Assembly: GCA_022561875.1 (NCBI GenBank)
Contig: JADFQJ010000022.1
Span: 1 to 42,664 of the forward strand
Direction: 5' to 3'
Origin: Bacteroidota bacterium
GTDB lineage: Bacteria > Bacteroidota > Bacteroidia > Bacteroidales > VadinHA17
DNA: 42,664 nt
Shown: positions 6,727 through 33,445 of the stretch, in pieces
How the letters are laid out: every line of letters starts with the position of its first letter
Position numbering within the stretch: the stretch's first letter is position 1
The notes under the pieces: model-generated
What the model saw: the letters and a program-made list of their open reading frames with translations, nothing else
What the model was told of the DNA's origin: nothing
Database searches by the model: none
Made by a program: the position numbers and the translations under genes

Positions 6727-6782
6727 GTTACGTGTTACGTGTTTCGGAGCATATTTCACTGTGGTTACGGGTTGCGTGTACC
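6727..6782. repeat. word-repeat island with short core copy
   Basis: TTACGTGTTACGTGTTTC, then the core GGAGCATATTTCACTGTGGT (6746-6765, inverse of 11383-11402), then TACGGGTTGCGTG. Compared to 11383 it lacks the hairpin segment. Confidence 0.65.
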
Positions 6783-6796
6783 TTTCAACTTTCAGG

Positions 6797-8080
6797 CTAT
6801 TCATAAGCTTCAGGTTTATATTCTTTCAATTTTTTGTCAGCAAATACCGGCTTAAATCTTGCAAACCGCTGTAATCCGTTTTCCATTGGCACTTCGGGCC
6901 ACTTATCGCCGGTAAGGGGACGTACATAGCGGATAAATTCATCGGTTACATCAATTCTGTCGGAAGTGATCCATTTTTCCGGAAAAGTACGTTCAGAGAG
7001 CGCAACTTTATCAAGTGGCACCTTATCATACCTGACTGAATACTCTTTGCCAGGGTTTCGGAGGATAGTGGCCATCCAGCCGTTACCTTCATCTATCGCT
7101 ATTTCCACAGCTTTTTGCCCCACCAGGTAAGCTTCATCAAGATCAACAGTCGATGCATATATAGCTGTGGAGCGCTGATCGGTTCCCATGACCTGGCCGC
7201 GTGCTGAACCTCTTGCCTTTAGACCTTTTTCATTCAGCCTGTTTATTACATTCTGGTAAACAGAAACTTTACCGGAGCCAAAGGAGGTATGTCCGAAAGA
7301 ATCCTTAACTTCTCCGTTATCACCAATATCGAATCCTTCGCTCACAACAACAATGCAGTGTTTATCGGTTTTCAACCGGTCGTTGATCCTGTCGGTCATT
7401 TCTTCCAGGGTGATTTTTGATTCTGCAAGGTAGATCTGCAATGGGAATTTACGATCAGGATCGGCCAGGCGGGCAGCAGCAGGGATGAAACCGATCTTCC
7501 TGCCCATGGCCTGGATCACCAATACCGGATCGGCAGGTGAAGATCCCCGGTTTTCTTCCATAGCATTCTGGATAATGTGTGACCAGTAACGTGCAACACT
7601 GCCATAACCCGGGGTATGATCGATCAACCGGAATTCCTGATCACCCATATCATTATCAATGGTTTTCGGGACACCGGTGGCAATTATTTCCAATCCTTCT
7701 GTTTTGCATATCTCGCTGACTTTGAATACAGTATGCTGACTGTCATTTCCACCGATATAAAAAAAGTATCCAATATTATGAGCACGGAATACTTCAACGA
7801 TCCTGGAAAAATCATTTGTCTGGTGGTACTTTAATTTGTAGCGGCAGGTGCCGATACTCCCTGCGGATGGTGTGTTTTTTAACAGAGTGATTTCTTTCGG
7901 ATCCTGTGAGGTCAGAACCAGCAATTCTTCCTTCAGAACACCTTCTATTCCGTGCCATCCGGCGTAGATATTTCCAAAAGCTTCAGGGTATTCCCGGCAG
8001 GTTTCAATAATTCCTCTCAGTGAGTTATTGATTACAGGTGAGGGTCCGCCTGACTGTGCAACTATAACGTTTCTAATCAT
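6797..8080 (-). CDS. pfp: pyrophosphate-type 6-phosphofructokinase
   Basis: Phosphorylates fructose-6-phosphate to the 1,6-bisphosphate, probably using pyrophosphate. The fold is shown by AQSGGPSPVINN at the N-terminus, the GGNDS loop, the catalytic PKTIDND and QAMGRKIGF. Asp at the second position of the loop (where ATP enzymes have Gly, GGDGS) and Lys in PKTIDND (Gly in the ATP form) are the accepted marks of PPi specificity; the Asn in GGNDS is found in one clade of the PPi-type family. At 427 residues it is longer than bacterial ATP-PFK (about 320). With transketolase nearby it could also act on sedoheptulose-7-phosphate, as proposed for organisms lacking transaldolase; that is inference. 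Confidence 0.88.
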   Translation of the reverse strand: MIRNVIVAQSGGPSPVINNSLRGIIETCREYPEAFGNIYAGWHGIEGVLKEELLVLTSQDPKEITLLKNTPSAGSIGTCRYKLKYHQTNDFSRIVEVFRAHNIGYFFYIGGNDSQHTVFKVSEICKTEGLEIIATGVPKTIDNDMGDQEFRLIDHTPGYGSVARYWSHIIQNAMEENRGSSPADPVLVIQAMGRKIGFIPAAARLADPDRKFPLQIYLAESKITLEEMTDRINDRLKTDKHCIVVVSEGFDIGDNGEVKDSFGHTSFGSGKVSVYQNVINRLNEKGLKARGSARGQVMGTDQRSTAIYASTVDLDEAYLVGQKAVEIAIDEGNGWMATILRNPGKEYSVRYDKVPLDKVALSERTFPEKWITSDRIDVTDEFIRYVRPLTGDKWPEVPMENGLQRFARFKPVFADKKLKEYKPEAYE

Positions 8081-8164
8081 AATAAGATAAAAAGTAAAAT
8101 GTGAAAAGATAAAAGTAAAGATTTAATTGTTAATTGGTTATATGTTAATTTGTTAATTTGCCTG

Positions 8165-8352
8165 CCCCATGAAATGCGATGTAGGAGCATATTTCACTGG
8201 GGTTAATTGGTAATTAGTTTTTACTATTTGTGTTTATATTAGTCTGTTATGAGTTACGATTCAATCGTATCATCGTACAATCGTACAATCGCCCTATCGT
8301 ACAATCGCCCAGTCGCCCCCTCGCCCAGTCGCCCCCTCGCCCAGTCGCCCAT
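8165..8352. repeat. core copy plus CGTACAATCG/CAGTCGCCC tandem repeats
   Basis: Core with one mismatch, GGAGCATATTTCACTGGGGT (8184-8203), preceded by CCCCATGAAAT (8164-8174), which can pair with it. Next come tandem CGTACAATCG and CCCTCGCCCAGTCG units (8268-8352) with a C-rich plus strand. Between the SDR and pfp genes. Confidence 0.65.
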
Positions 8353-8365
8353 TCTCCCTTCTTCG

Positions 8366-9214
8366 TCATACTCCGCCAAATGCACTATACCCACCGTCAA
8401 CAGGAAGTATGATACCGGTGATAAACCCTGACATTTCTGATAACAGGAACAAGGCGGTTCCCTGAATATCTTCAGGGTGTCCGAATTTCCCCATTGGGGT
8501 ATTGGCAATTATCTTTTTACCCCTGGGAGAATAATCCCCGGTTTTTTTATCCATCACAAGGAACCTGTTCTGGTCGGTTAAAAAGAATCCCGGGGCTATA
8601 GCATTAACACGAATCCCGACTTTTGCCAGATGAACCGCAAGCCATTGTGTGAAGTTATTTACAGATGCTTTGGCTGCAGAATAGGCAGGGATCCTGGTGA
8701 GCGGTTTAAAAGAATTCATTGAAGAGATATTGAGGATAACTCCCTGTTTGCGTTTGACCATATCCCTGGCAAACACTTTTACAGGCAGAACAGTACCCAG
8801 AAAATTCAGAGCAAAGACCTTTTCAAAACCTTCCAGGGATAGTCCGAAGAAAGAATTCTCAAGTTCAGAAACGGTTTCATCAGTCAGTTCTTCCAGTTTG
8901 GTTGTTGCTTCCGGGGTATTGCCACCGGCACCGTTGATAAGGAAATCAACCGGTCCAAGCTCTTTTATAACCTGGTTATATGCTTTTTCCAGAGATTCAC
9001 GATCCAGCACATTAGCCTGGATACCTGTGATCTTTGTTCCTGTTTCGGATGAAAGTTTTTCTGCATTATTCATGGCTTTATCTAAATCGATATCCAGGAT
9101 AGCGGTTTTCACACCGGCTGATCCCAGTGCATGAGCTAATGCAGTTCCGATCACCCCGGCACCGCCTGTAATTACACCTACTTTGTTTTTCAGATCATTA
9201 AATAAGTTATTCAT
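8366..9214 (-). CDS. SDR-family sugar-acid oxidoreductase (D-mannonate oxidoreductase-like)
   Basis: A 282-residue classical short-chain dehydrogenase: NAD(P)-binding GGAGVIGTA, the structural NGAGGN, and the catalytic Ser in NISSMNSF, Tyr in PAYSAAK and Lys four residues on. The inserts NGAGGNTPEATT, FTQWLAVHLAKVGIRVNAIAPG and LTDQNRF resemble the SDR-type D-mannonate/fructuronate oxidoreductases (B. subtilis UxuB/YjmF type) rather than gluconate 5-dehydrogenase. The start overlaps the end of the LacI gene by 8 bp, so the regulator and enzyme share a transcript. The exact substrate is uncertain; a keto-hexonate/aldonate pair is the best guess. Confidence 0.8.
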   Translation of the reverse strand: MNNLFNDLKNKVGVITGGAGVIGTALAHALGSAGVKTAILDIDLDKAMNNAEKLSSETGTKITGIQANVLDRESLEKAYNQVIKELGPVDFLINGAGGNTPEATTKLEELTDETVSELENSFFGLSLEGFEKVFALNFLGTVLPVKVFARDMVKRKQGVILNISSMNSFKPLTRIPAYSAAKASVNNFTQWLAVHLAKVGIRVNAIAPGFFLTDQNRFLVMDKKTGDYSPRGKKIIANTPMGKFGHPEDIQGTALFLLSEMSGFITGIILPVDGGYSAFGGV

Positions 9215-10328
9215 AATATCCTTCCTTGTTTAATTCAAATTCCAGATAATCATTCAGATTCTCACTGGTTATGATATCCAGTGGCATAAGATTGTTTTTC
9301 CTGATCTGCTTCTTAAACACTATATGGTGGAAAAGTGCATAAATACCTCTGAATGCCTGTTCCATAGGTTTTTGGCAGATAAGGAAATCAATTATCCCCT
9401 TTTCTAAAAAAGCGATATTGTCCCTTGTCAGATCATAGCCGATAAGGGTTATATGTTTTACTCCCTTGTGTTCCAGATGATCAGCTATTATATGTGCAGC
9501 AGATGTAGCAAATATTCCTGAAATTTCTGTGCCAGGAATATTAATTATGGAATTGGTCTTATTATTTATCTCTTCCGAAGGGAAATTCAAAACCTGGAAT
9601 GACATATTGGGAATGTTTTTGAGAGAATATGCCTTGAATCCATTCTCTCTTTCCCTGATATGGTGTGTGTTTTCGCGTTCTCTTCCAATATTGATGATCG
9701 CAGTTGTTTCTGTTGATTCAAGACTTATTTTCATTAGTTTCGCAGCCAGCATACCACTTCTGAAGGGGTCCTGACCAAAAAAACTAAGGTTATTTTCATT
9801 TTTAAGCGTTGAGTCAATAAATACATAAGGTATTTCCAGAGTGTCGAGTTTTCTGACAAAACCAGAAGCTTGTATGGAAAAAACAGGAGCAAGTAAGACT
9901 CCATCCGGTTGAAAGTTCAGTATCTCAGTGGATCTTTTCCTGAACGAATCAGGGGCATATTGGTCGAACAGAAAATTATTGACTGTTACTCCATAATCAG
10001 CAATTTCCTTTTCAGCTTTTAATATCCCGTTCAGTGGCGCTTCCCAATACATATTTTCAGGTGTATGAAAAGGGATCAGGCATGCAAGTCTGGGTTTTTC
10101 CCTTGATGCAAGTACCCGCGCAACAAGGTTTGGTTTGTAGTTGGTTTTCTCCATAACACCGAGGATCTTTTTCGTTGTTTTTTTTGAAACCTGTCCCCGG
10201 TTATGGATTACCCTGTCCACGGTGCCGATAGATACATCAGCAAGCCTGGCAATCTCTTTAATGCCTGTTCTTTTGCTGGAGTTGATAATATTTATTTTTT
10301 GTTCAGGATCAAATGTAAGTAAAAAAAT
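9207..10328 (-). CDS. LacI-family transcriptional regulator, start codon unresolved
   Basis: Periplasmic-binding-protein-like sensor domain (residues ACLIPFH onward) behind a LacI DNA-binding head. The first usual start is GTG at 10220, but that would cut the helix-turn-helix in half: the frame stays open upstream and reads IKEIARLADVSIGTVDRVIH, a textbook LacI head, so the protein must begin further upstream. The frame stays open to 10328, where a TAA blocks it, and contains no ATG, GTG or TTG before the head. Initiation at ATT or another rare codon, or a sequence error in the start codon, is implied. Coordinates given are the full open frame. It is the first gene of the sugar-acid cluster and probably its repressor, acting at the palindrome 10337-10350. 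Confidence 0.85.
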   Translation of the reverse strand: MFLLTFDPEQKINIINSSKRTGIKEIARLADVSIGTVDRVIHNRGQVSKKTTKKILGVMEKTNYKPNLVARVLASREKPRLACLIPFHTPENMYWEAPLNGILKAEKEIADYGVTVNNFLFDQYAPDSFRKRSTEILNFQPDGVLLAPVFSIQASGFVRKLDTLEIPYVFIDSTLKNENNLSFFGQDPFRSGMLAAKLMKISLESTETTAIINIGRERENTHHIRERENGFKAYSLKNIPNMSFQVLNFPSEEINNKTNSIINIPGTEISGIFATSAAHIIADHLEHKGVKHITLIGYDLTRDNIAFLEKGIIDFLICQKPMEQAFRGIYALFHHIVFKKQIRKNNLMPLDIITSENLNDYLEFELNKEGYYE

Positions 10329-10336
10329 TTAAATAT

Positions 10337-10350
10337 CGTGTACGTACACG
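10337..10350. promoter_or_regulatory. perfect palindrome, probable LacI-family operator
   Basis: CGTGTACGTACACG reads the same on both strands (7-bp half sites, central CpG-like step as in many LacI operators). It lies 9-20 bp before the likely start of the LacI gene and next to a TAnnTTTG box on the other strand, so it could control both directions. Palindrome seen; the binding partner is inferred. Confidence 0.6.
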
Positions 10351-10357
10351 AAAAAAC

Positions 10358-10365
10358 TAAATTTG
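10358..10365 (+). promoter_or_regulatory. TAnnTTTG (-7) box pointing away from the LacI gene
   Basis: TAAATTTG matches the Bacteroidota -7 consensus exactly and starts 7 bp after the palindrome. No clear -33 TTTG was seen at the right distance. A transcript from here would run through 10370-10490, which holds no long gene. Confidence 0.3.
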
Positions 10366-10366
10366 T

Positions 10367-10459
10367 ATGGAGAATATTGTTGAGGAGGGATCGGGGATAC
10401 TGAAATCCGGGGTTGAAAAACTCTGTATGCCCCCTTCAGGATTACTCAGGATCAGGTGA
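10367..10459 (+). CDS. possible 30-codon ORF or gene remnant
   Basis: ATG to TGA encodes 30 residues beginning MENIVEEGSGILKSG and containing LCMPPSGLLRIR. It is the only open stretch in the gap between the LacI gene and the SiaC-like gene and runs divergently from the LacI cluster. The ATG would lie before any transcript start set by the box at 10358, which argues against it as drawn. It may be the relic of a gene once divergent from the regulator. Low confidence. Confidence 0.2.
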   Translation: MENIVEEGSGILKSGVEKLCMPPSGLLRIR

Positions 10460-10493
10460 ATAAACACATTTAGTTTTAAATAAAAAACGAGGA

Positions 10494-10880
10494 CTACTCA
10501 AGTACCGGTATCATTTCAAAAGGGATAATTATCATAGATTGGTAATCATCCCCGCAGTCTTTCATATCATAATCATCTTCTTCATAATACCATTTGATTT
10601 CGACTTCCTTACCGTTTCGAATGATCTCTTCCATTTTCCTGAAGATTGCAAGGAGAACTTTTGAAGAACTGGTATTGAAGTATTCCAGTTGTATTCTAAC
10701 TTCAGTATAATCCAGAGGGTCTTTGATATAATCATCGAGCCAGGAAAGAAAAGGAGCATAAAAACTACTGTGGTTCTCAGGGATGGATTTCCCGCTTAGG
10801 ACCAGAAGTTGCTTATCCCAATCAAAACTTATAGTAGGAGTTTTTTGTGTTCCCTTAATTAAATAAGGTTCAGTCTTCAT
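10494..10880 (-). CDS. SiaC-family regulatory phosphoprotein (DUF1987)
   Basis: 128-residue protein of the SiaC family, whose Pseudomonas member is phosphorylated by the SiaB kinase, dephosphorylated by the SiaA phosphatase, and binds the diguanylate cyclase SiaD. Family marks are the N-terminal GTQKTPTISFD, SGKSIPENHSSFY, and the phosphorylation-site segment LEYFNTSSSK. The start at 10880 (MKTEPYLIKG) was chosen: a start at 10970 would add 30 hydrophobic residues that do not belong to the family and would overlap the small gene upstream. No SiaA, SiaB or cyclase partner is in the window. Confidence 0.8.
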   Translation of the reverse strand: MKTEPYLIKGTQKTPTISFDWDKQLLVLSGKSIPENHSSFYAPFLSWLDDYIKDPLDYTEVRIQLEYFNTSSSKVLLAIFRKMEEIIRNGKEVEIKWYYEEDDYDMKDCGDDYQSMIIIPFEMIPVLE

Positions 10881-10932
10881 TTGAAATAAGTTACTATTAA
10901 GAATTAACTTAAAACAGAAAAAGATAAAAATA

Positions 10933-11103
10933 CTAATTATTTTTTGTTTTTGGAAGTTTTTGGGAATCAATTATGATTTGAACATCATATTCCCATTTGC
11001 ATTTTTGAGAACAAAACACCTTTGGAAGTGTATCAGGGTTGTCAATAAGGTATATTTTTTCTTTACTAAGTTTTTTGCCGCACCAGTTGCAGATAGTTAT
11101 CAT
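10933..11103 (-). CDS. 56-residue zinc-ribbon protein
   Basis: Short gene reading MITICNWCGKKLSKEK, then a Pro-rich middle, then VFCSQKCKWEYD and a Lys-rich tail ending KTKNN. The pairs CNWC and CSQKC are spaced as in a treble-clef/zinc-ribbon site of the type found in small MYM/YHS-like proteins, so zinc binding is likely. It lies 52 bp before the SiaC-like gene on the same strand and could be co-transcribed. Function unknown. Confidence 0.65.
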   Translation of the reverse strand: MITICNWCGKKLSKEKIYLIDNPDTLPKVFCSQKCKWEYDVQIIIDSQKLPKTKNN

Positions 11104-11126
11104 TTTTGCCTGTAGTTAAAAAGAAA

Positions 11127-11187
11127 AAACTGTTGGGCGGATTATTTCAGATGCCTTTTCTTGATTATTATCCAAACCCAACAGTTT
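11127..11187. repeat. 11-bp perfect inverted repeat with a 39-nt loop
   Basis: Arms AAACTGTTGGG (11127-11137) and CCCAACAGTTT (11177-11187) are exact complements, just upstream of the zinc-ribbon gene. The T-tract expected of a simple terminator is not obvious, so it may be a 5'-leader structure of that transcript or a small mobile-element footprint. Confidence 0.45.
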
Positions 11188-11339
11188 GCCTCCAGATTTT
11201 TGGTGAGTTGACCAAAAACATTAAGGAGCCGCTCAGGCATAAAAATAATTGAATTCTGCCTTAATGAAACAAGTTTAATGTTCTATTGTGTGAATAGCTT
11301 TTATTATTGCATGAGACAGTGAAAATTCAGTATGAAAAT

Positions 11340-11490
11340 GGAAAAAGTCGGAAGTCGGAAGTCATCGAACCCGTAACTCGTAACCACAGTGAAATATGCT
11401 CCTCCCCTGGTGAAATATTTTCGTGCCTCAAATTTCACAGGGCAAGCCCGAAACACGTAACATGGACACTGGCACACTGCCTCACTGCTC
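11340..11490. repeat. repeat island with full-length 20-bp core and hairpin
   Basis: CGTAAC-type words flank the core ACCACAGTGAAATATGCTCC (11383-11402), followed by TGAAAT (11411-11416) and ATTTCACAGGG (11432-11442), which can pair as a bulged hairpin, then GAAACACGTAAC. Compared with the copy at 6746-6765, this one has a roughly 45-bp hairpin segment inserted between the core and GAAACACGTAAC. Confidence 0.65.
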
Positions 11491-11530
11491 CTCAACCTTC
11501 TTCGATTTTTGCTCTTTATACTGTCTCACA

Positions 11531-12280
11531 TTAAAAAAGGTCTTCAAGTTCCTTTGTATGATCGGCAGGGATGTGAAGTTTGATGGTTTCTTTATCATTA
11601 ATTAAAATGCAAAGGTTGTTTTTTCGGTCAACTTTATTCAGGAATATCAGGTTGATAATGGTTGAACGACTGATCCTGAAAAAGATGTTTTCGGGAAGCA
11701 TTGAATATAACTTACCCAGGTTAATAGTGGTAGTTTCGGTTTTTCCGTTTGACAGAAACAAATCTGTATAATTTCCATCGGCTTTACAGTATAGAAGTTC
11801 ATTCGGATTTACGAGAATATAACCGGTTCTTAAATTGAATTTCAACTTGTTATGGATATGTTTGCCGGAAATGAAATTTTCAATTTTTTTCCTGAACTCC
11901 ATATTTGTTTGCTGTGTTGACAGCCGGTTTATACTTTTCTGAAGATTGTTTTTATTAACAGGCTTGAGAATGTAATCGAAAGCTGAATGTTGTATTGCCT
12001 TAATAGCATACTGATCGAAAGCTGTAACGAAAATTATATAAGGAGTTATATCAAAGTCTTTTAACTCATTTAATAAGTCAAAACCGGTTTTACCCGGCAT
12101 TTGAATATCAAGAAAAAGAATATCGGGTTTAAGATTAAGGATCAATGTAAGGGCATCATCAACATTTGAACATGTTGCAACAACTTCAACCTGCTCAATA
12201 CCATGAAGCAGGTTATCAATCAGTTCTCGTGATTCTTGCTCATCATCAATAATGATAGATCTTAGTTTTTTCTTCCCCAT
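11531..12280 (-). CDS. LytTR-family response regulator
   Basis: 249 residues: a CheY-like receiver (residues 5-125) with the acidic pair IDDE, the phospho-acceptor Asp58 in FLDIQMPG, the switch Thr in FVTAFD and Lys in LKPVNK, followed by a LytTR DNA-binding domain (about 145-249) with the usual ISRSTIINL stretch. Receptors of this class in Bacteroidota usually pair with a 7TM or HisKA_2-like LytS/YehU kinase encoded next door; none is present here, so this is an orphan in the window. The gene stands alone, with 161 bp before it that hold nothing recognisable. Confidence 0.93.
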   Translation of the reverse strand: MGKKKLRSIIIDDEQESRELIDNLLHGIEQVEVVATCSNVDDALTLILNLKPDILFLDIQMPGKTGFDLLNELKDFDITPYIIFVTAFDQYAIKAIQHSAFDYILKPVNKNNLQKSINRLSTQQTNMEFRKKIENFISGKHIHNKLKFNLRTGYILVNPNELLYCKADGNYTDLFLSNGKTETTTINLGKLYSMLPENIFFRISRSTIINLIFLNKVDRKNNLCILINDKETIKLHIPADHTKELEDLF

Positions 12281-12441
12281 AATACGTTAGTTGTTGGTGC
12301 CAGCTCTGGTTCAGAGGAACAGTTACAGATTCATAGGTCAAATATAATAATAAGAACATAGCTTAACAAATTTTCTCTGTGAAATACCCTCGATAGATAT
12401 TCAATTAATCTTTCTGGTTTTTCTGCTTGAAGCTAACTTGG

Positions 12442-13800: not shown

Positions 13801-13820
13801 ACCGGGAATATCAATCTTTT

Positions 13821-13850
13821 CGAAAGTACAAAAAATGAACGTTTTTGCAA
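13821..13850 (-). promoter_or_regulatory. Bacteroidota-type promoter for the RdhA-like gene
   Basis: On the minus strand TTG (13850-13848), a 19-bp spacer, then TACTTTCG (13828-13821), one mismatch from TAnnTTTG. It would start transcription about 15 bp before the ATG at 13800. Confidence 0.4.
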
Positions 13851-14033
13851 CTTTTCGAAATATCATTCGTCAAAAAAAATACTCACCATGACATGGAGAT
13901 CAAACCAGGAAATATAAAGGAAGTTATATATTTCAATTTTATGAAGATTTTCCCAACCGGTCTTAATCTGATTATGCGGAATGATTTTGGTTTGATGATA
14001 AACAAAATGTATTAAGTAAATAAAGAGTTTATA

Positions 14034-14130
14034 AGTGTATAAGTTTAGGAGTTAAGAAGCTGAGAACTTGTCTTGTTCAGGTGCCCTTGACATCTTACAA
14101 ATAAACTTTTTTAACTTATAACTTATAACT
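14034..14130. repeat. short word-repeat patch
   Basis: A-T-rich tandem words such as AACTTATAACTTATAACTTT between the glycerate kinase gene and the RdhA-like gene. Similar in style to the other islands but without the 20-bp core. Confidence 0.4.
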
Positions 14131-14132
14131 TT

Positions 14133-16413: not shown

Positions 16414-16440
16414 TAACAAAAACATAATGATAACTCGGGA

Positions 16441-16530: not shown

Positions 16531-16531
16531 T

Positions 16532-17208: not shown

Positions 17209-17264
17209 CGGCTTTACCTGGATTAAAATCAGGCAGTACCTGCAATATTATAATAGCTGAATAA

Positions 17265-19455: not shown

Positions 19456-19536
19456 AATTTTTGTTTTATTTATCAGAATCACCGGTTAGCCATTCAAGTC
19501 TTTTCATTATTGAGAATATAGATGAATGATCAAATT

Positions 19537-21231
19537 TTATTCATCGCTTGTTGCATTCTCAAGAGTTTTCATTATACTGAACACAAATGCAGAGGATAGG
19601 AACAACATTACTACCAGCAACAGGAAGAATTGCCACATCTCCCATTTCATCCAGAAAGGTCCTATTAGTCCGGCAAGCAGGTTCCCAATTGCCGTTGATC
19701 CCAGCCAGGCTCCCTGCATAAGCCCGGAAAGGCTTGGAGGAGCAACTCTCGAAACAAAAGAAAGTCCAATTGGGCTATAAAATAATTCTGATATTGTAAG
19801 GCTAAAATAAGTAGCAATCAGCCAGTAGGGAGTAATCCTCATAGCATCTGCAACAGAACCTGCGACAAAATATTTTGGTGCAACAAGGCCTACGACAGCA
19901 ACAATCATAATTACAAAACTTAATCCTGCAAGGGAAAGTCCAATGCCAATCTTTCGCGGAGAACTTGGCTCCAGGCGCCTTTTGTTGAGTGCGGCAAAGA
20001 TTCCTATGACCAGTGGTGTCATGAAAACAATGAAAATAGGATTGAACTGCTGGAATATGATGGGGCTAATAGGCATTTTGGAATCATACCTGCTAATCAC
20101 CATGTAGGCAATTGTAGTACCAATGACCACTATACTCAAGCCTATCATTTTCATGAGTTTACTGTTATTTTTGCCAATTAATAAAACAAGTCCAATAATA
20201 ACAGCAATAATGGGAAGGAATGCCCTGAGGTCAAAAAATGCATAGGTAAAAGTGCTGACCTCAGTAAATGTGTAATCCCGGGCAAAGATGGTTAAGGTAA
20301 AACCATTTTGATGGAAAGCCATCCAAAAGAAGATATTAACTGTAAAGACCAGGCCAAGAGCAACCAGTCTTTTTTTGTATTGCTGAGGTGTAAGTTTAAT
20401 TATGTTTGAGGATTCATTCTTAACCGCTTCTTTGTGCATTATATCAACATGCTTGTATGTTTTACGGAAGCCCACAAAGATGAGCAGGGAAATAAAGATA
20501 CTTACTGCTGCAATACCGAAACCCAGACTGTAGGATTTACTGAGTGTATCGATATAATGCTGACTAAAATCGGCGAGGTTGGTAAATTCATAAACAGTAT
20601 CCGGAAGGATCGAAGATTTCGCCAATTCCATATATTCACCGGCCTTATCATAAACACCTCCTTCTTGTAAAGTATTCAGGTAGTTATGAGCCATATTAGG
20701 AATATTGGCATTATAAACCAGGTCTCCTTTTTTCATGATCCACTTGCTCATGGCCTGGGCAGCAGATGGGGCAAAAAAGGCCCCTACATTAATTCCCATG
20801 TAAAAAATCCAGAAAGCAGCATCTCTGAATTTGTCGAGTTTTGAATCATCGTAAAGCTTTCCTACAAGAGCTTGCAGATTGCCTTTAAAAAAGCCGGTTC
20901 CAAAAGAGATAATGGTAAGGGATATGTATATAATAGATTTCTCCAAACCGGGTTGTGACAGTAATAAATAACCTGCGATCATAAGGATAATCCCCAGAGT
21001 AATGGTTTTCCTAAAACCCAGAAGCTTGTCGGCAATGATCCCACCCAGAAGAGGAATAAAATAAATGCCGAATAGAAATGTTCCGTATACCCGGCCAGCT
21101 TCTTCAGCATTCATGCCAAATCTGGCCTGCAGGAAAAGAATAAATATAGCAAGCATTGTATAGTACCCAAAACGCTCACCCATATTTGCGAATAAAAAGA
21201 CATAAAGTCCTTTTGGATGTCCTTTTAACAT
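19537..21231 (-). CDS. POT/PTR2-family proton-dependent peptide transporter
   Basis: 564-residue, 12-14 TM inner-membrane protein that takes up di- and tripeptides with protons. The N-terminal MGERFGYYTM is the family's ERFxYY motif, but the first Glu of the classical ExxERFxYY is Asn16 here. Other marks: the FKGNLQALVG segment, FWIFYMGINVGAFFAP (PTR2 signature), and the late SELFYSPIGLSFVSRVAPP. A periplasmic insertion lies around residues 180-225. It fits a peptide-using lifestyle along with PepD and the hydroxyproline enzyme. Ends 81 bp upstream of asnA, same strand. Confidence 0.9.
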   Translation of the reverse strand: MLKGHPKGLYVFLFANMGERFGYYTMLAIFILFLQARFGMNAEEAGRVYGTFLFGIYFIPLLGGIIADKLLGFRKTITLGIILMIAGYLLLSQPGLEKSIIYISLTIISFGTGFFKGNLQALVGKLYDDSKLDKFRDAAFWIFYMGINVGAFFAPSAAQAMSKWIMKKGDLVYNANIPNMAHNYLNTLQEGGVYDKAGEYMELAKSSILPDTVYEFTNLADFSQHYIDTLSKSYSLGFGIAAVSIFISLLIFVGFRKTYKHVDIMHKEAVKNESSNIIKLTPQQYKKRLVALGLVFTVNIFFWMAFHQNGFTLTIFARDYTFTEVSTFTYAFFDLRAFLPIIAVIIGLVLLIGKNNSKLMKMIGLSIVVIGTTIAYMVISRYDSKMPISPIIFQQFNPIFIVFMTPLVIGIFAALNKRRLEPSSPRKIGIGLSLAGLSFVIMIVAVVGLVAPKYFVAGSVADAMRITPYWLIATYFSLTISELFYSPIGLSFVSRVAPPSLSGLMQGAWLGSTAIGNLLAGLIGPFWMKWEMWQFFLLLVVMLFLSSAFVFSIMKTLENATSDE

Positions 21232-21357: not shown

Positions 21358-21585
21358 ATGAAGAAGCGCCTAAAGCGCCTAAAGTTATAAATTACTAAAC
21401 CTCTAACCTTACTCATCTCTCTTACTTCTACATTCTATATTCAAAATTTTACATTCTACATTCTTCTAAAGTGTTACGAGTTTCGGGTTACGAGTTCACG
21501 CCTCTTCGGCCCTTTGCTCTTCTCTCTTCACTTTTGCCTTCTGCCTTTTGCCTTTTGCCTTTTTTTTTCCTTACTCAACTCACTC
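21358..21585. repeat. word-repeat island
   Basis: Successive short-word blocks: GCGCCTAAA twice, ACATTCTA-type words, GTTACGAG-type words (complement of CGTAAC), then a pyrimidine-rich TGCCTTTTGCCTTT block. The 18-mer at 21535-21552 is the exact reverse complement of 24532-24549. Confidence 0.6.
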
Positions 21586-24516: not shown

Positions 24517-24531
24517 TTTCTGGTTACTCGA

Positions 24532-24615
24532 GGCAAAAGGCAGAAGGCAGAAGGCAAAAAGCAGAACATTCTTAACCCGTAACCCGTAACACGTAACACG
24601 TAAAACTCGTAACTC
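24532..24615. repeat. word-repeat island after the DUF4831 gene
   Basis: AAGGCAG units (24532-24565) followed by four CGTAAC-type units (about 24573-24612). The 18-mer GGCAAAAGGCAGAAGGCA at 24532-24549 recurs inverted at 21535-21552. Confidence 0.6.
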
Positions 24616-24636
24616 TGCCTCCCAGCGCCCCGTATC

Positions 24637-27105: not shown

Positions 27106-27179
27106 ACTTTTGATTTCTGCAACTGGCAGAGATAGAATAAGTAAACTTTTTTATATACACTAAAAGAATAATTATTAAT

Positions 27180-28643
27180 ATGAGTAAAGAAATAATAAAC
27201 CTGGATCCTAAGAAACTTTGGGAGAATTTTTATAGTCTTACCCAGATTCCCAGACCTTCAAAAAAAGAAGAGAAGGTAATTGCTTTTATGAGGAAGTTTG
27301 GGGAAGATTTGGGGCTGGAAACAATTGTGGACGAAGTAGGTAACTTAATCATTAAGAAGCCTGCAACCCCCGGAATGGAAAACAGGAAAACTGTTATTCT
27401 TCAGGGACATCTGGATATGGTGCCTCAAAAGAACAGTGACAAGATATTCGACTTCGGGAAAGATCCTATTGAACTTGTGATCGATGATGGCTGGGTAACT
27501 GCTAACGGAACAACTCTGGGAGCTGATAACGGGATTGGTGTTGCGGCTGCAATGGCTGTCCTGGAGACTGATAACCTGCAGCACGGACCAATCGAGGCAC
27601 TGTTTACCATTGATGAAGAAACCGGCATGACCGGGGCTTTCGGCCTCAAGGCAGATGTTCTTAATGGAGATATCCTGCTCAATATGGACTCTGAAGATGA
27701 AGGCGAATTGTATGTGGGTTGTGCCGGTGGTACTAATGCCAATATGAAAATTACTTTTAAGGAAGAAAATGTACCGGAAGGACATAAGGCTTTTAAATTG
27801 GAATTATCGGGATTAAAAGGTGGTCATTCAGGTATCGATATTCCCCTTGAAAAAGGAAACTCTAACAAATTACTGAACCGTTATTTGTGGCATGCTACTG
27901 CAAAAAAACACGGAATACGTATTGCAGAAATTAATGGAGGAAGCCTGAGGAATGCTATTCCAAGAGAATCTTTTGCTATTATTACCCTTCCTGCTGATAA
28001 CGAAAAAGATTTTATGGAGTGTGTAAAGGAATTTGAACAGACATTCCGGAATGAATTATCTTCTGTTGATCCGGATATTAAATTTGGGGCAAAACCTGCT
28101 GATATGCCTTTATCTGTTATGGATAAAGATTCACAGGAAAAACTTGTGAATACTGTCTATGCCTGTCCAAACGGAGTTATCAGGATGAGCACTGATATGG
28201 AAGACTTGGTTGAAACTTCTACAAACCTGGCCGTGGTTAAGTCGGAAGGAAATAAAGTTGAGATACTGTGCCTGATACGAAGCTCGGTGGATTCTGCCAG
28301 GGAAGACCTGAAAAACATGTTCACAAGTGTGTTCGAACCGGCAGGAGTTGAAATTGTATTTGATGGGGAATATCCCGGCTGGAAACCCAATATGGATTCA
28401 GCGATACTGAAAACAATGAAGGATGTGTATAATAAAAAGTTTGGCAAAATTCCAGAAATAAAGGCTATTCATGCCGGTCTGGAATGTGGATTGCTTGGTG
28501 GAGTCTATCCAAACCTGGATATGATCTCGTTCGGACCAACCATCCGGTTCCCGCATTCTCCGGATGAAAAAGTAAATATCGAAACAGTTTCAAAATTCTG
28601 GGAATTCCTTCTTGAAACTTTAAAAGCAATTCCTGAAAAATAG
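27180..28643 (+). CDS. pepD: aminoacyl-histidine dipeptidase (M20 family)
   Basis: Cytosolic zinc dipeptidase with broad Xaa-His/dipeptide activity. 487 residues. Metal and catalytic parts: GHLDMVPQ (first His/Asp), TTLGADNGIG (bridging Asp), IDEETGMTGAFGL (catalytic Glu pair), NMDSEDEGELYVGCAGG, and a C-terminal His in IRFPHSPDEKV. The lid/dimer domain includes GLKGGHSGIDI. It lies between the MFS gene and a thioredoxin-like gene (12 bp), probably one transcript, and fits peptide fermentation. Confidence 0.94.
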   Translation: MSKEIINLDPKKLWENFYSLTQIPRPSKKEEKVIAFMRKFGEDLGLETIVDEVGNLIIKKPATPGMENRKTVILQGHLDMVPQKNSDKIFDFGKDPIELVIDDGWVTANGTTLGADNGIGVAAAMAVLETDNLQHGPIEALFTIDEETGMTGAFGLKADVLNGDILLNMDSEDEGELYVGCAGGTNANMKITFKEENVPEGHKAFKLELSGLKGGHSGIDIPLEKGNSNKLLNRYLWHATAKKHGIRIAEINGGSLRNAIPRESFAIITLPADNEKDFMECVKEFEQTFRNELSSVDPDIKFGAKPADMPLSVMDKDSQEKLVNTVYACPNGVIRMSTDMEDLVETSTNLAVVKSEGNKVEILCLIRSSVDSAREDLKNMFTSVFEPAGVEIVFDGEYPGWKPNMDSAILKTMKDVYNKKFGKIPEIKAIHAGLECGLLGGVYPNLDMISFGPTIRFPHSPDEKVNIETVSKFWEFLLETLKAIPEK

Positions 28644-28655
28644 AATATAATTAAC

Positions 28656-29189
28656 ATGAAAAAAAATTACCTTGCCGCAATTCTTCTTCTCCTTGCAACG
28701 ACAGGCTTCTCGCAGGATATAAACAAGGTTGAATTTTCCGAAAGGGTCGGTAGTATGATACTGATAGGAGAATGTGATCGCGATGCATTTACCATGCAAC
28801 CATTCCAGGAATGGTATGACCCTGAATACGAAGAATACACACCCGAACAGGCCGTTGTTGAAAAGGTTAAGAAAAATATCAGTTATGCTTTGCGGATAAC
28901 GATAGTGATGGGAACATGGTGTTCAGACAGCCAAAGGGAAGTACCAAGGTTCTACAGGATTATGGATGATGCAGGTATCCCGGATGAAAAAGTGGAAATG
29001 ATCAGTGTTAACAGGGAAAAACTGGTTCCCGGAATGGATATCAGTGCCCTGAAAATTGAAAGAGTTCCTACCTTTATTTTTTATGATGGAATAAAGGAGC
29101 TGGGCAGAATTATTGAAACCCCTGCAGAAACATTAGAGAAAGACCTTCTCAGGATATTAGTTAAGAAACCCTTACACGAACCTCAATAA
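28656..29189 (+). CDS. exported thioredoxin-like protein
   Basis: 177 residues with a signal peptide ending at GFSQ, followed by a thioredoxin-like fold: IVMGTWCSDSQREVPRF (single redox-site Cys, CxxS form) and the cis-Pro loop IERVPTFIFYDG. The CxxS form suggests reductase/isomerase binding or a non-redox role rather than a full dithiol oxidoreductase. Third gene of the MFS-pepD operon, 12 bp after pepD. Confidence 0.78.
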   Translation: MKKNYLAAILLLLATTGFSQDINKVEFSERVGSMILIGECDRDAFTMQPFQEWYDPEYEEYTPEQAVVEKVKKNISYALRITIVMGTWCSDSQREVPRFYRIMDDAGIPDEKVEMISVNREKLVPGMDISALKIERVPTFIFYDGIKELGRIIETPAETLEKDLLRILVKKPLHEPQ

Positions 29190-29237
29190 ATTTAGATTTT
29201 ACATATCAACCGGTTACCCGAACCTTTTTTCTCATTA

Positions 29238-29270
29238 TTTGACAAACAGTCCGAAAATGTATTAAATTTG
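29238..29270 (+). promoter_or_regulatory. Bacteroidota promoter (TTTG-N21-TAAATTTG)
   Basis: TTTG at 29238-29241, a 21-bp spacer and a perfect TAnnTTTG at 29263-29270, the best promoter match in the window. It drives the activase/hydroxyproline-dehydratase pair with a long leader of about 220 nt. Confidence 0.65.
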
Positions 29271-29290
29271 TACTATATATCACAAAACGC

Positions 29291-29368
29291 ATGAACAAAC
29301 AATTCCAACATACTCCATTTTATGCCCGCAACGGAAAATGCCTGTTTGAGTGCTGGATCTTCTATTAG
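29291..29368 (+). CDS. possible 25-residue leader peptide
   Basis: ATG to TAG just after the predicted transcript start; starts MNKQFQHTPFYARNG and ends CLFECWIFY. It could be a leader peptide or chance. No family known. Confidence 0.2.
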   Translation: MNKQFQHTPFYARNGKCLFECWIFY

Positions 29369-29500
29369 AGAATATTTCCTGAAAGAACCACTGGTAAAAC
29401 CCGGATAAGGTATTTCTAATTTTCTGTATCCATTTTTCAATTTTTCTGTAATAAACTGTATCTCGTTTGCTATCGACGATACCGGTAATAACTTCTGTAT

Positions 29501-30298
29501 ATGAAAGGTTTGATCTTTGATATAAAAAGACTTGCCCTGCATGATGGTCCGGGGATCAGGACCACTGTATTCTTTAAGGGGTGTCCTTTGAATTGCTTGT
29601 GGTGTCATAACCCGGAAAGCCGGTGTTTTGATACAGAGTCATATACACATTTGGATAGATTAGATGGGCAGGTCTTTAAAAAACAGAAAGAAGTAGGAAA
29701 ATGGATGTCTGTTGATGAAGTGATAAGAGAGATTGAAAAAGACAAGATCTTTTACAAGGAATCAGGAGGGGGAGTGACCTTTTCAGGAGGGGAACCGTTT
29801 TTGCAGTATGAATTCCTCGGTTATTTGCTTCATGCGTGTAAGCATAAGGGTATTCACACTGCTGTGGATACAACCGGCTATATAAAAAGGGAGAAATTTG
29901 AAAGTATTTATAAGCTGTCAGACCTGTTCCTGTACGATCTGAAACATATGGATGAAAGACTGCATAAGAAATATACAGGGGTGTCTAACAAGCTGATCAT
30001 TGAGAATCTTGAATGGTTATCCGAAAGAAAAAGGAAAATAATAATTCGTTTTCCTGTTGTGCCCGGTTATAATGATTCTGAAAAAAACATCGACCTGATG
30101 AGATTATTACTTGAAAAATTATATCCGAATGTGAATCAAATCGATCTGCTTCCTTATCACAGAATGTCAGGTAGTAAAGCTGAGCGTTTTGGATTAGAAC
30201 AACAAATAGCCGGGATTGAAAAGCCTGATCCCGCTCAATTGGAATCCATCAGGAAGAAGTTTGAAGAAACCGGTTTTACCGTAGGAATAGGTGGATAA
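29501..30298 (+). CDS. glycyl-radical-enzyme activase (radical SAM)
   Basis: 265 residues. Uses S-adenosylmethionine and a [4Fe-4S] cluster to place the glycyl radical on its partner enzyme. N-terminal IKRLALHDGPGIRT and GCPLNCLWCHNPES carry the CxxxCxxC cluster motif (Cys28, 32, 35); TFSGGEPFLQ and YDLKHMD follow. Many activases for dehydratase-type glycyl-radical enzymes carry an extra ferredoxin-like insert with two clusters right after the CxxxCxxC; here that stretch has no further Cys and is short (about 30 residues), so this enzyme resembles the simpler PflA layout. 37 bp before hypD, in the same operon. Confidence 0.92.
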   Translation: MKGLIFDIKRLALHDGPGIRTTVFFKGCPLNCLWCHNPESRCFDTESYTHLDRLDGQVFKKQKEVGKWMSVDEVIREIEKDKIFYKESGGGVTFSGGEPFLQYEFLGYLLHACKHKGIHTAVDTTGYIKREKFESIYKLSDLFLYDLKHMDERLHKKYTGVSNKLIIENLEWLSERKRKIIIRFPVVPGYNDSEKNIDLMRLLLEKLYPNVNQIDLLPYHRMSGSKAERFGLEQQIAGIEKPDPAQLESIRKKFEETGFTVGIGG

Positions 30299-30299
30299 G

Positions 30300-30331
30300 A
30301 ATAGAAATTAAAAATTAAAAATTAAAAATTA
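30300..30331. repeat. AT-rich tandem repeat between activase and hypD
   Basis: AATTAAAA units about 3.5 times, immediately before the hypD start region; may act as an A/T-rich translation enhancer, as is common before Bacteroidota genes. Confidence 0.5.
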
Positions 30332-30335
30332 CGAA

Positions 30336-32699
30336 ATGAACAAACGTGTCAGGAAATTACGAGAGCAAAGCCTGAATGCTGTAAACCGTGTATCGCATGA
30401 AAGAGCTGTCTTAGTGACGGATTTTTATAGGGAACATCTTGAAACAGGCCTTTCAAAACCTGTTGAACGGGCAAAGGTTTTTGAATATATTCTCAGGCAC
30501 AAACATGTATGTATTAATGATCTTGAACTGATAGTGGGTGAAAGAGGGCCTGCACCTAAAGCAACTCCTACTTATCCTGAGATTACATTACATTCTCTTA
30601 AGGATCTTGATATACTTGACTCGAGACTAAAAGTTTCATTTAAGGTTGATGATGAAACCCGGAAGATATACAATGAACAGATCATTCCGTTCTGGCAAGG
30701 AAATACCAACCGCGACAGGATAATGCAGAATATGGATAAAGAGTGGTTGAATGCATATGAAGCAGGTGTTTTTACTGAATTCCAGGAACAAAGAGCTCCT
30801 GGGCATACTGTACTTGGAAAAAAGATCTACAGTCAGGGAATGATTGATATTCAGAAAGAAATCAGGGAGCAGATAGAGAAACTTGATTTTTTCAAAGAGA
30901 GGGATGCATATGAACGCAGAGAGGAACTAAAAGCAATGGATATTGCTGCCGGTGCATTGATAATGTTTGCAAAGAGGCATGTTGATAAGCTTATTGAACT
31001 GTCTGCAAATGAACAGGATAATTCCCGAAAAGAGGAACTTGAAAAAATAACTGCCGTTTGTCGTAAAGTACCGGCGCATGCACCGGAATCATTCCATGAA
31101 GCTTTACAGTATTACTGGTTTGTGCATCTTGGAGTGATCATCGAACTGAACCCGTGGGATTCATTTAACCCGGGGCGGCTTGACCAGCACCTCTATCACT
31201 TTTACAGGAAAGGATTGAAGGACGGGAGTCTTGATAAGGATAAAGCAACCGAATTGCTGCAATGTTTCTGGATAAAATTTAATAATCATCCTGCTCCTCC
31301 CAAGATTGGGGTCACTGCGCGGGAGAGTAACACTTATACGGATTTTACACTGATCAATCTGGGCGGGTTAAAGGAGGATGGCTCGGATGCAGTTAACGAA
31401 CTAAGTTACCTGATATTGGATGTTATTGAGGATATGCGAATAGTTCAGCCTTCATCTATGATACAACTGAGCAAAAAAACCCCTGATAAATTCATACACA
31501 GGGCACTTAAGATTATTAAAACAGGTTTTGGACAGCCATCGGTTTTCAATACCGACGCTATAATTAAGGAGCTGGTTAGCCAGGGAAAATCAATTATTGA
31601 TGCACGTAACGGAGGTGCCAGCGGATGTGTCGAGTCCGGAGCTTTCGGTACAGAGGCATATTTTCTTACCGGATATTTTAACTTCAATAAGGTGCTTGAG
31701 ATAACACTGAATAACGGAACGGATCCCGTTACAGGTAAACAGATTGGAATTCAAACAGGAGATCCAATAAAATTCAGGTCGTTTGAACAGGTGACGAAGG
31801 CCTGGCAAAAACAGTTAAACCGGTTTATTGATATCAAAATTAAGGGGAATAATATCATTGAAAAGATAAATGCAAATCATATCCCTGTACCATTCCTTTC
31901 TGTTCTGATTGATGATTGCATTAAGAATGGAAAGGACTATAATGCCGGAGGGGCAAGGTATAATACGAGTTATATCCAGGGTGTCGGGCTTGGTAGTGTT
32001 ACCGATAATCTTACCTCTGTCCGGTATCATGTGTTTGACAATAAAGATATCTCGATGGCTGAGCTTTTGAAAGCCCTGAATGCTGATTTTGCGGGATACG
32101 ATGAAATGCGGCATAAGCTTGTTTATGAAACTCCAAAGTTTGGTAATGATGATGAATATGCTGATCAGCAGGCTGTTGAAGTTTTCAATTGTTTTTATAA
32201 AGCTGTGAATGGCAGACCGACAGCACGCGGGGGCAAATTCAGGATCAACCTGCTGCCGACCACGAGTCATATTTACTTCGGAAGCGTGACAGGGGCAATG
32301 CCTGACGGGAAAAAAGCCGGCAAGCCTGTTTCTGAAGGGATTTCACCAGTTCAGGGTGCCGACACTAAAGGACCTACTGCCGTGATGAAGTCGGCAGCCA
32401 GGATCGACCATCTTAAAACAGGAGGCACACTGCTGAACCAGAAATTCTTACCCGGCTTTTTTAATACCAGTGAAAATATTGTAAAACTTAGTCATCTTAT
32501 CCGTGCATATTTCAGTATGGATTGCCACCATATCCAGTTTAATGTTGTGGATGCAGATACGCTGAAAGATGCACAGAAACATCCTGAGAATCATCGTGAC
32601 CTGATCGTCAGGGTGGCAGGGTATAGTGATTATTTTAACGACCTGGGAGAAGAATTGCAGAATGAAATCATCAGCAGGACGGAACATGGGGGGATGTGA
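30336..32699 (+). CDS. hypD: glycyl-radical trans-4-hydroxy-L-proline dehydratase
   Basis: 787 residues. Removes water from trans-4-hydroxy-L-proline to give 1-pyrroline-5-carboxylate, which can then become proline. The thiyl-radical Cys is 431 and the general acid/base Glu is 433 in GGASGCVESGAFG; the glycyl radical is Gly762 in RVAGYSDYF. Long stretches (VGERGPAPKATPTYPE, GHTV, ELNPWDSFNPGRLDQHL, KDYNAGGARYNT) follow the HypD group as remembered from the C. difficile enzyme, whose Cys, Glu and Gly sit three residues further on. Other GCVE-type dehydratases (glycerol, choline lyase) are the alternatives. The matching activase is next door. No proC in the window. Confidence 0.85.
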   Translation: MNKRVRKLREQSLNAVNRVSHERAVLVTDFYREHLETGLSKPVERAKVFEYILRHKHVCINDLELIVGERGPAPKATPTYPEITLHSLKDLDILDSRLKVSFKVDDETRKIYNEQIIPFWQGNTNRDRIMQNMDKEWLNAYEAGVFTEFQEQRAPGHTVLGKKIYSQGMIDIQKEIREQIEKLDFFKERDAYERREELKAMDIAAGALIMFAKRHVDKLIELSANEQDNSRKEELEKITAVCRKVPAHAPESFHEALQYYWFVHLGVIIELNPWDSFNPGRLDQHLYHFYRKGLKDGSLDKDKATELLQCFWIKFNNHPAPPKIGVTARESNTYTDFTLINLGGLKEDGSDAVNELSYLILDVIEDMRIVQPSSMIQLSKKTPDKFIHRALKIIKTGFGQPSVFNTDAIIKELVSQGKSIIDARNGGASGCVESGAFGTEAYFLTGYFNFNKVLEITLNNGTDPVTGKQIGIQTGDPIKFRSFEQVTKAWQKQLNRFIDIKIKGNNIIEKINANHIPVPFLSVLIDDCIKNGKDYNAGGARYNTSYIQGVGLGSVTDNLTSVRYHVFDNKDISMAELLKALNADFAGYDEMRHKLVYETPKFGNDDEYADQQAVEVFNCFYKAVNGRPTARGGKFRINLLPTTSHIYFGSVTGAMPDGKKAGKPVSEGISPVQGADTKGPTAVMKSAARIDHLKTGGTLLNQKFLPGFFNTSENIVKLSHLIRAYFSMDCHHIQFNVVDADTLKDAQKHPENHRDLIVRVAGYSDYFNDLGEELQNEIISRTEHGGM

Positions 32700-32851
32700 A
32701 TGTAGTGAAGAGGTTGGAAGTTTGAAGTTCGAAGCTGGAAGGAGGAAGGCAACAGGCGGAAGGAAGAAGGAAGAAGAAAGCGGTGAGGGGTGAGTTGTGA
32801 GAGATGAGAAAATGAGAAGTTGAGAAAGTGAGAAGTTGAGAAAGTGAGAAT
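32700..32851. repeat. purine-rich word-repeat island
   Basis: Short GA-rich words: GGAAGGAGGAAGG, then GAGAAGTTGAGAAAGTGA repeated. It abuts the truncated HEPN frame directly, replacing the N-terminal half of that gene. Confidence 0.6.
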
Positions 32852-33076
32852 GTGCCGCCAAGGACTCATAATTTGATACATTTATTATCTTTTACCCCGA
32901 TAGAGCTAATAGATGACAGGAGCGAGTTTTTGTTGAGCTTAAACAGATTCCAATTAGAAGGACGATACCCTGACTACTTAACAAAGATGCATGATATTTG
33001 TAATGAGCAATTTACGACTTCGATGTTAGATTCTACAAATCAATTAAGACTATGGTTACTAGAGAAACTGCAATAA
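32852..33076 (+). pseudogene. HEPN-domain toxin (HepT-like), N-terminus lost
   Basis: 74 residues matching only the C-terminal part of the HEPN domain of the type usually paired with a MNT nucleotidyltransferase: PPRTHNLIHLLS, FLLSLNRFQLEGRYPDYL. Full-length proteins are about 120-135 residues; the front half (with the WxxxAxxDLxxA-type helix) is missing and the preceding bases are the GA-rich repeat island. The start given is GTG, probably not a real start. It overlaps the next gene by 25 bp, as in working HEPN-MNT pairs. Confidence 0.7.
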
Positions 33077-33381
33077 ACACAGCTAAATCTTTTATAAATG
33101 ATTGTCAATTAAATGGTTTAACTTTTCATAAAGTGATATTATTTGGTTCTGCTGCTAAGGGTTTGACACATGAGTGGTCAGATATAGATTTATTACTTAT
33201 TTCTGACCAATTTGGTGATAATATTTTTGATAATTTGAAACTATACTCCAGGATTAATATAAAATATCCAATTGTAGAGACACACCCATATCCAACGAAG
33301 TACTATTATGAGGGAAATGCCTTTTTTAAGGAGATAAGTAAAGAAAGCATTGAAATAATAACGCCTAAACCTAACGTATAA
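33052..33381 (+). CDS. MNT-type nucleotidyltransferase antitoxin (MntA-like)
   Basis: 109 residues with the minimal nucleotidyltransferase signature ILFGSAAKG, then SDIDLLLIS (the GS-x10-DxD pattern of the palm). In HepT-MntA systems this protein AMPylates the HEPN ribonuclease and neutralises it. The gene looks intact but its partner just upstream is truncated, so it is an orphan antitoxin. Low-GC codon use compared with neighbours hints at transfer. The stop codon is part of a repeat element (33378 onward). Confidence 0.82.
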   Translation: MVTRETAINTAKSFINDCQLNGLTFHKVILFGSAAKGLTHEWSDIDLLLISDQFGDNIFDNLKLYSRINIKYPIVETHPYPTKYYYEGNAFFKEISKESIEIITPKPNV

Positions 33382-33445
33382 CCACAGTGAAATATGCTCC
33401 TTCCCCCAATGAAATAAAAAGAATTTCATGGGGTAAACGTGGCAA
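33378..33445. repeat. repeat element: 20-bp core plus hairpin
   Basis: Core ACCACAGTGAAATATGCTCC (33381-33400) is identical to 11383-11402. It is followed by an inverted repeat (33404-33433): ATGAAAT (33409-33415) with ATTTCAT (33423-33429), extended by CCCC/GGGG around a bulge. Confidence 0.7.
33404..33433. terminator. hairpin between convergent genes, possible terminator
   Basis: Bulged stem CCCC-ATGAAAT / ATTTCAT-GGGG between mntA (+) and the membrane protein (-). No long T-tract, so termination is a guess; it is also part of the repeat element. Confidence 0.35.

Follow-up and report, generated by a model that had tools for sequence, protein, structure and literature searches.

The DNA analysed here, hereafter the window, comprises positions 1 to 42,664 (42,664 nucleotides, forward strand) of contig JADFQJ010000022.1 in the Bacteroidales assembly GCA_022561875.1, an apparently uncultured genome of 2,773,088 bases in 104 contigs that is 98% complete. 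Four places in the window carry the same 20-mer, as a first-pass annotation had recorded: exactly at 6746-6765 (minus strand), 11383-11402 and 33381-33400 (both plus), and with one mismatch at 8184-8203 (minus). None is expected (100 shuffles). With up to three mismatches allowed, the genome holds 57 copies, 39 of them exact, and the reversed sequence, used as a control, gives none. The annotation had taken the 20-mer as the core of a repetitive extragenic palindromic (REP)- or miniature inverted-repeat transposable element (MITE)-like unit; it is truly repeated, but copies read side by side reveal that it is not the whole unit and forms one arm of a larger 43-nt hairpin, which we call module A (CCACAGTGAAATATGCTCCTNNGTCGCATTTCACGTGGCARGC). 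We suggest, with a probability of roughly 0.6, that module A is the root unit of a family of minute hairpins that are mobile but not autonomous and insert without a general target duplication. In the window A is intact at one place (8160-8202) and survives at three others as deletion derivatives; the layout is as follows.

6719..6745, minus strand: 7-nt tandem array of CACGTAA units flanking the 6746 copy; the genome of a relative, G003, has the same array and no element
6746..6764, minus strand: truncated module A, 5' arm and half of the loop, 3' half deleted; the orthologous G003 spacer is without the element
8160..8202, minus strand: complete 43-nt module A, a CCCC/GGGG stem variant, in 7/8-nt arrays of the AAATTAAC type
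11369..11383, plus strand: CCGTAAC/CTCGTAA array 5' of the 11383 copy, resuming as CCGAAACACGTAAC past 11447
11384..11404, plus strand: 5' half of module A, 3' half deleted
11405..11447, plus strand: module B hairpin, 43 nt, found elsewhere in the loop of A
33382..33404, plus strand: 5' half of module A
33405..33438, plus strand: module C hairpin, 34 nt, found elsewhere at the 3' stem foot of A
33439..33447, plus strand: 3' terminus of module A, GTGGCAAGC

At 6746-6764 everything past GCTCC is gone. The island at 11384-11447 joins the 5' half of A to B; the absent 3' half was probably lost between GGCAAGC repeats. At 33382-33447 A is accompanied by C, and the inner part of A is missing. The hairpins that had been noticed after the cores at 11383 and 33381 are present, but they are two different modules, B (11405-11447) and C (33405-33438). 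The 6746 and 11383 copies, once contrasted as a site without and a site with an insert, are both deletion products without the A 3' half that 51 of the 57 genomic copies keep, and the shared GAAACACGTAAC following the core belongs to the flanking 7-nt tandem array and does not mark where the element ends.

Alignment of the genomic copies, which the annotation had proposed as a check, yields a consistent hairpin unit with fixed ends. All 82 unmodified copies of A (21 from the source genome and 61 from relatives, together 36 distinct sequences) measure 43 nt, although, because 64 loci of relatives (most of them) were chosen by an A-only pattern, the unmodified share among relatives is uninformative. 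The module is predicted to fold as a stem with two bulges, ((((.((((((..(((.........))))))))))))), followed by a 5-nt 3' tail that is mostly YARRC; the DNA folding energy is -8.1 kcal/mol (z -2.8 against shuffles). Watson-Crick pairs fill 446 of the 468 pair cells in the 36 distinct sequences. The third pair of A occurs as A-T (24 sequences) or C-G (9), and the fourth pair of B is T-A or C-G; these changes are compensatory, at one pair per module, and were possibly inherited only a few times. Deviating pairs include eight G-U on the plus strand and seven on the minus; since G-U is equally common on both strands, RNA is not favored over DNA as the folded molecule. Two loop bases are variable, and the remaining core is nearly fixed, even across genera.

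Other hairpins are nested in A at fixed points. In the loop of A, CTCCTTC and GTCGCAT border the 43-nt module B; at the 3' foot of A, the 34-nt module C has ATTTCAC on one side and GTGG on the other. B in turn may hold D, E or F, one at a time, framed by ATTTCAC and RGGG. These secondary hairpins have a common layout of 5' CCC, stem, RGGG and tail, and their insertion points fall in the loop or just past TTTCAC, leaving the parent stem unbroken. The point past TTTCAC has clearly taken several inserts: C in A; D, E and F in B; and D in a sister root, A' (CCCTGTAGAAATAGCTCC...). As DNA, B and C fold better than shuffles (z -2.6 and -4.4), and F forms a three-way junction (-20.1 kcal/mol, z -6.4). 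The 57 copies of the source genome comprise 21 of A alone, one of A plus a fused remnant (L078), 12 of A+B, eight of A+B+C, three of A+C, five of A+B+D, one of A+B+C+D and six incomplete forms, one of which is truncated at a contig end. A chance match on the plus strand, L022, was excluded from this table, and L070, whose foot is GTTG and whose tail falls outside the script's rule, was placed by hand under A+B+C as complete. Core counts in the genome are 32 for B, 17 for C and 16 for D, and reversed controls give 0. On both strands together, 25 of 30 B loci are in A, three in A' and two cut; 14 of 17 C loci are in A and three cut or fused; and D occupies A islands at 10 of 16 loci and lies elsewhere at six. 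A lone D outside A and B stands at L228, between ACTAAAACAC and TAAGTCAC (contig C45 of the source genome, about 19516-19540, minus strand, in a CACTAAGA-like spacer), and from this copy we judge that secondary modules may move by themselves.

Read by eye, a 298-nt island at L168:1465-1762 (contig C2 of the source genome), rooted on A' within ATTATTC-type arrays, is made up of some eight hairpin modules, several of them nested: within A' lie B, F and D together with others, to a depth of at least four. A further hairpin of the CCC-stem-RGGG-tail layout that lies outside modules A to F, CCCCCATGAAAT...ATTTCACGGGGCAGGC, occurs at L299 (contig C1; about 4447-4562 of this locus, minus strand).

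The surroundings of A are as regular as the unit itself. Target tests used 50 copies from the source genome with a parsed 3' end and 84 copies from relatives, 134 in all, and in 132 of these a C stands immediately 5' of A. The seven bases to the left and right of the element match at 0.81 in the source genome (0.545 with permuted partners, maximum 0.634) and at 0.76 in the relatives (0.451, maximum 0.522), an effect that is sharp at length 7. Arrays of 7 nt surround 41 of the 50 source-genome copies but, measured alike, 7-10% of the C positions in the intergenic DNA of the window (62 of 844 and 99 of 952). The flank identity is mostly due to insertion inside existing arrays and not to duplication: where no array stands on either side (12 copies) the flanks match at 3.6 of 7, about the permuted level of 3.2-3.8, and no duplication is seen at the empty and filled orthologous pairs compared (the window sites and L149/L173). 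The target-site duplication expected of a MITE was not borne out, and we reject a general 7-nt duplication, with an ambiguous middle set: where arrays are weak or absent (35 copies) the match is 4.6 of 7 and the picture is graded. Altogether 104 of the 134 copies lie in arrays, of 10 unit classes by coarse clustering; the 41 in the source genome belong to four classes.

Arrays are themselves abundant in this DNA. The window spacers are rich in diverse 7- and 8-nt arrays (e.g., 8262-8358, 21531-21563, 24531-24603, 32713-32850, 41464-41523), and exact 6-mers in its intergenic regions recur at distances 7 (91) and 8 (65), against 0-11 at the other distances from 3 to 13. Orthologous spacers carry different arrays. 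A strict de novo search for inserts that interrupt arrays returned nine in 439,600 bases, of which five hold A; the other four show no family by eye among the 20 stretches, a set biased by being chosen around A copies. An earlier, loose filter had given 404 hits, mostly meaningless among the matches listed.

Filled and empty orthologous sites were compared with window 5700-12300 as the query and synteny checked separately from sequence. At site 1, A is absent in G001, G003 and G005, all syntenic on both sides; G003 has the same CGTAAC array unbroken (AACTCGTAAC running directly into CCGGAACACGTAACACGTAAC), and the G005 spacer has a different island, by eye D plus further hairpins. At site 2, A is absent in G001, G003, G005 and G006, again syntenic on both sides. 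At site 3 it is absent in G005 (both sides syntenic) and, by left-side alignment only, in G001, G002 and G003; G006 has A+B+F there in the opposite orientation, also by left-side alignment only. In a further pair, L149 is filled (A+B) and L173 of the source genome is empty, CACCTGATAAC continuing uninterrupted into CACTT with the junction GATAAC/CACTT. In several other spacers A is present in the two genomes compared, surrounded by different arrays. Its orientation agrees at L020/L047, L021/L139 and L074/L054, which could also be inherited copies whose arrays have turned over, and is reversed at L173/L095 and L196/L123. Two contig ends of G006, L242 and L097, have about 58 nt to the left and about 60 nt to the right of A in common, with B in one only; because they differ further out, they represent two copies of a longer repeat, not a single locus. 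This repeat, at the ends of contigs C331 and C337, is at least about 160 nt long, both contigs end in it, and the flanks of L099 are similar.

Within the family, A (two mismatches allowed) was found in 12 of 117 genomes: all seven of the genus, both of g14, the one of g3 and two of three of g10, and none of those in the other 11 genera. Outside the family but within the order, none of 24 genomes has the exact 16-mer. The exact A pattern picks out 64 stretches among 84,980 genomes, all from metagenome-assembled genomes with Bacteroidota, Bacteroidetes or Bacteroidales in their titles. Among them, CSMAG_1509 (L144) has A without the tail and is not tied to any A-bearing genome of the family, and the element may therefore reach beyond it. 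Carriage by phage or plasmid was considered and set aside, no plasmid or phage record being matched by the fullest composite (blastn, E 0.01); four 17-mer matches in viral contigs, from which the rest of A is absent, were taken as chance. By a simple open reading frame (ORF) rule, 45 of the 57 copies are clearly intergenic, six lie inside and six partly inside an ORF, some of the latter probably because ORF starts were drawn too long. Copies occur in all four orientations relative to neighboring genes, and several lie some 20 nt away from the end of a gene. At L017, L045 and L083 (contigs C23 and C1 of the source genome), A islands keep the reading frame at the beginning of genes for related proteins, immediately ahead of a FALFSQAPQGFNYQ-like segment. 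There the A, B and D modules read as an extended N-terminus (MKTK... FALFSQAPQGFNYQAVARD), in or before a putative signal peptide.

That the element is mobile is supported by its dispersal, its exact unit, its preference for arrays, its fixed nesting points, its adjacency to C, the empty sites and its patchy presence. In the mechanism we propose, copies would enter as one precise unit next to C, mostly within pre-existing intergenic 7-nt arrays. The DNA, or a copy of it, would be recognized as a folded single strand; the landing sites would be loops of single strand slipped out of the tandem arrays, and an enzyme supplied in trans would join the 3' tail and the 5' end of A next to C, placing the element 3' of that base. 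Insertion is probably into single-stranded DNA. The most natural class of mover would be the HUH/Y1-like transposases of single-stranded DNA, an assignment we make tentatively and of which a resident REP-associated tyrosine transposase (RAYT) makes up the larger part. An HUH-type enzyme fits the chemistry proposed, as in IS200/IS605. Whether one may go further, and see here a self-nesting family outside the cyanobacteria, among the smallest mobile DNA (hairpins of 43 and 34 nt), that enters its own loop and stem foot and heptamer arrays without duplication by a transposition chemistry or enzyme not yet described, seems to us doubtful.

Several observations weigh against the proposal that A is a mobile hairpin family. 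Covariation is limited to one pair per module, and D folds no better than its shuffles (z -0.4). B and C are found only inside A, A' or cut or fused remnants, so that neither gives a sign of moving on its own. Sixteen of the 35 copies whose arrays are weak or absent match at five or more of seven flanking bases, so a 7-nt duplication may have occurred in some copies. The right boundary of L149 is supported by five shared bases only. A single class, CCGTAAC, accounts for 28 of the 41 array copies of the source genome, so that some of the dispersal could be due to recombination between arrays. Searches of the family genomes with Y1_Tnp and RVT_1 found no mobilizing enzyme, and no gene-bearing version between split A halves, such as an autonomous transposon with the same ends would be, was recognized in the loci examined. 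Across 36 family genomes, all drafts in which absence is soft evidence, the Y1_Tnp count does not follow the copy number of A (Spearman 0.20, p 0.25), and RVT_1, sought in 35 genomes (G024 and G028 left out), has no match in G002 to G006, genomes with 42 and 29 copies among them.

The hairpins could instead be REP/REPIN-type palindromes moved by a resident RAYT or an IS200-like Y1 transposase, which we think rather unlikely. The anatomy is alike (a short single-strand hairpin, duplication-free insertion next to a short motif, single Y1 genes), and RAYTs have been proposed to act in trans, according to excerpts of PMC3116915. Y1_Tnp matches are most numerous in the two genomes of g14 (11 in either), which have 25 and 10 copies, and core-bearing family genomes average 3.8 matches (11 genomes) where core-free ones average 2.3 (25 genomes), but the difference is not significant (Mann-Whitney p 0.34). 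Moreover G024 has seven core copies and no Y1_Tnp match, G002 eight copies and one partial match (profile 20-81), and genomes free of the exact core reach seven matches (G031, which has one A with two mismatches). In the source genome a look for a RAYT-type transposase, suggested by the annotation, located three Y1_Tnp matches, and the A core (two mismatches allowed) is in none of the three loci of 2.5-4 kb each; no inverted doublet of the REPIN (paired REP) kind was seen among the copies read, all single units, and the close pairs noticed (L006, L017, L043) are direct. We therefore regard the link to Y1 or RAYT genes as not supported. Other palindromes do lie beside these loci by eye: L086 and L087 (contigs C63 and C6) are single Y1 transposase genes of 149 and 150 amino acids with GC-rich palindromes of their own alongside, and are candidate RAYT systems in their own right. 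Of the earlier REP- or MITE-like description, the dispersed palindrome, the consistent ends, the modular gain and loss and the filled and empty orthologous sites stand; membership in RAYT-dependent REPs or in duplication-making MITEs is not supported.

Equally unlikely, in our estimation, is that transposition proper played no part and that tandem arrays already holding A passed it on to others through ectopic recombination or gene conversion. The location in arrays, the lack of a general target duplication and the concentration in one unit class would follow, the L097/L242 pair also fits, and conversion between A copies could produce the presence and absence of B, C and D at their fixed points. 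Against this are the spread of the array copies over 10 classes, the occurrence of A outside arrays as well (L149, L096) and the opposite orientations of A in some orthologous spacers. Mobility through an RNA copy agrees with the hairpin constraint, the small size and, again, the duplication-free insertion, and the source genome and G019 have two RVT_1 matches each; we nevertheless consider it improbable, and RVT_1 reverse transcriptase is not supported as the mover, since its counts do not follow copy number (five in G001, which has one copy, and none in the copy-rich genomes named above) and the G-U pairs show no RNA-strand bias. Least probable by a wide margin is a conserved regulatory RNA or transcription terminator in place of a mobile element. 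The intergenic placement and the copies close to gene ends would suit one, but every orientation to the neighboring genes occurs, three loci are inside coding sequence, orthologous sites are empty, and position by orthologous genes is not conserved at the window sites. Rfam gives nothing at gathering score over the window; its one weak match, the ToxT thermometer with the fullest composite (23.6 bits where the gathering score is 81, E 0.067), was taken as chance.

Mobile elements of this size without a gene of their own are, to our knowledge, hardly understood, the best known bacterial case being cyanobacterial. It is this kind, the cyanobacterial small dispersed repeats (SDRs), that by its general description appears closest to the A family. 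SDRs, as Elhai et al. are said to have set out in 2008, reportedly form hairpins of 21-27 nt, are embedded in heptameric tandem repeats and are nested. RNA-copy mobility has been suggested for them, and we know of no enzyme that moves them. The A family resembles them in being a small dispersed hairpin with no gene of its own and precise insertion, in residing in heptamer arrays (at the frequencies given above) and in the nesting of one hairpin in another; it differs in belonging to the Bacteroidota, in its lengths of 43 and 34 nt, in having several nesting levels and in its target, a C in an array and not HIP1. Excerpts of the literature place SDR5 precisely between nucleotides 3 and 4 of HIP1 (PMC4390886), mention SDRs beside REPINs (PMC3116915) and describe TAACTGA heptamer repeats in Beggiatoaceae, cyanobacteria and five Bacteroidetes (PMC4679880). 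REP/REPIN-RAYT systems, as far as the excerpt of PMC3116915 goes, share dispersed extragenic hairpins and the presence of single Y1 transposase genes. The A family, in contrast, is without a RAYT association, a significant copy-number link or inverted doublets, and has a nested grammar and an array target. The hairpins of Allomyces, the yeast GC clusters and sponge RHE are likewise small, gene-less mobile hairpins in spacers, and the part of PMC2800124 that treats Allomyces suggests RNA-copy mobility and reports no flanking duplication. These are organellar, mitochondrial, and other elements than ours. No comparable array target is known to us among them. The Rickettsia palindromic elements (100-150 bp, not in 7-nt arrays) also occur in frame within protein genes, a likeness to L017, L045 and L083. 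In the portions of the open-licence literature searched, we recognized no description of the A family. That hairpins, heptamer arrays and nesting come together again in a family from another phylum suggests a general mechanism; the A family ties together two little-explained features of bacterial spacers, heptamer arrays and nested palindromes, and its dense, patchy distribution with clear filled and empty sites makes the mechanism testable by comparative genomics.

A few features of the window lie outside this family. The stop codon of a 109-amino-acid ORF at 33052-33381 abuts the element at 33382; by its GSAAKG...SDIDLL stretch it looks like a putative antitoxin-type nucleotidyltransferase. 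Another spacer stretch, at 5719-5811, has matches of 80-87% at many sites of the genus (about 20-117 of the query). The GC skew of the window seemed to track gene orientation.

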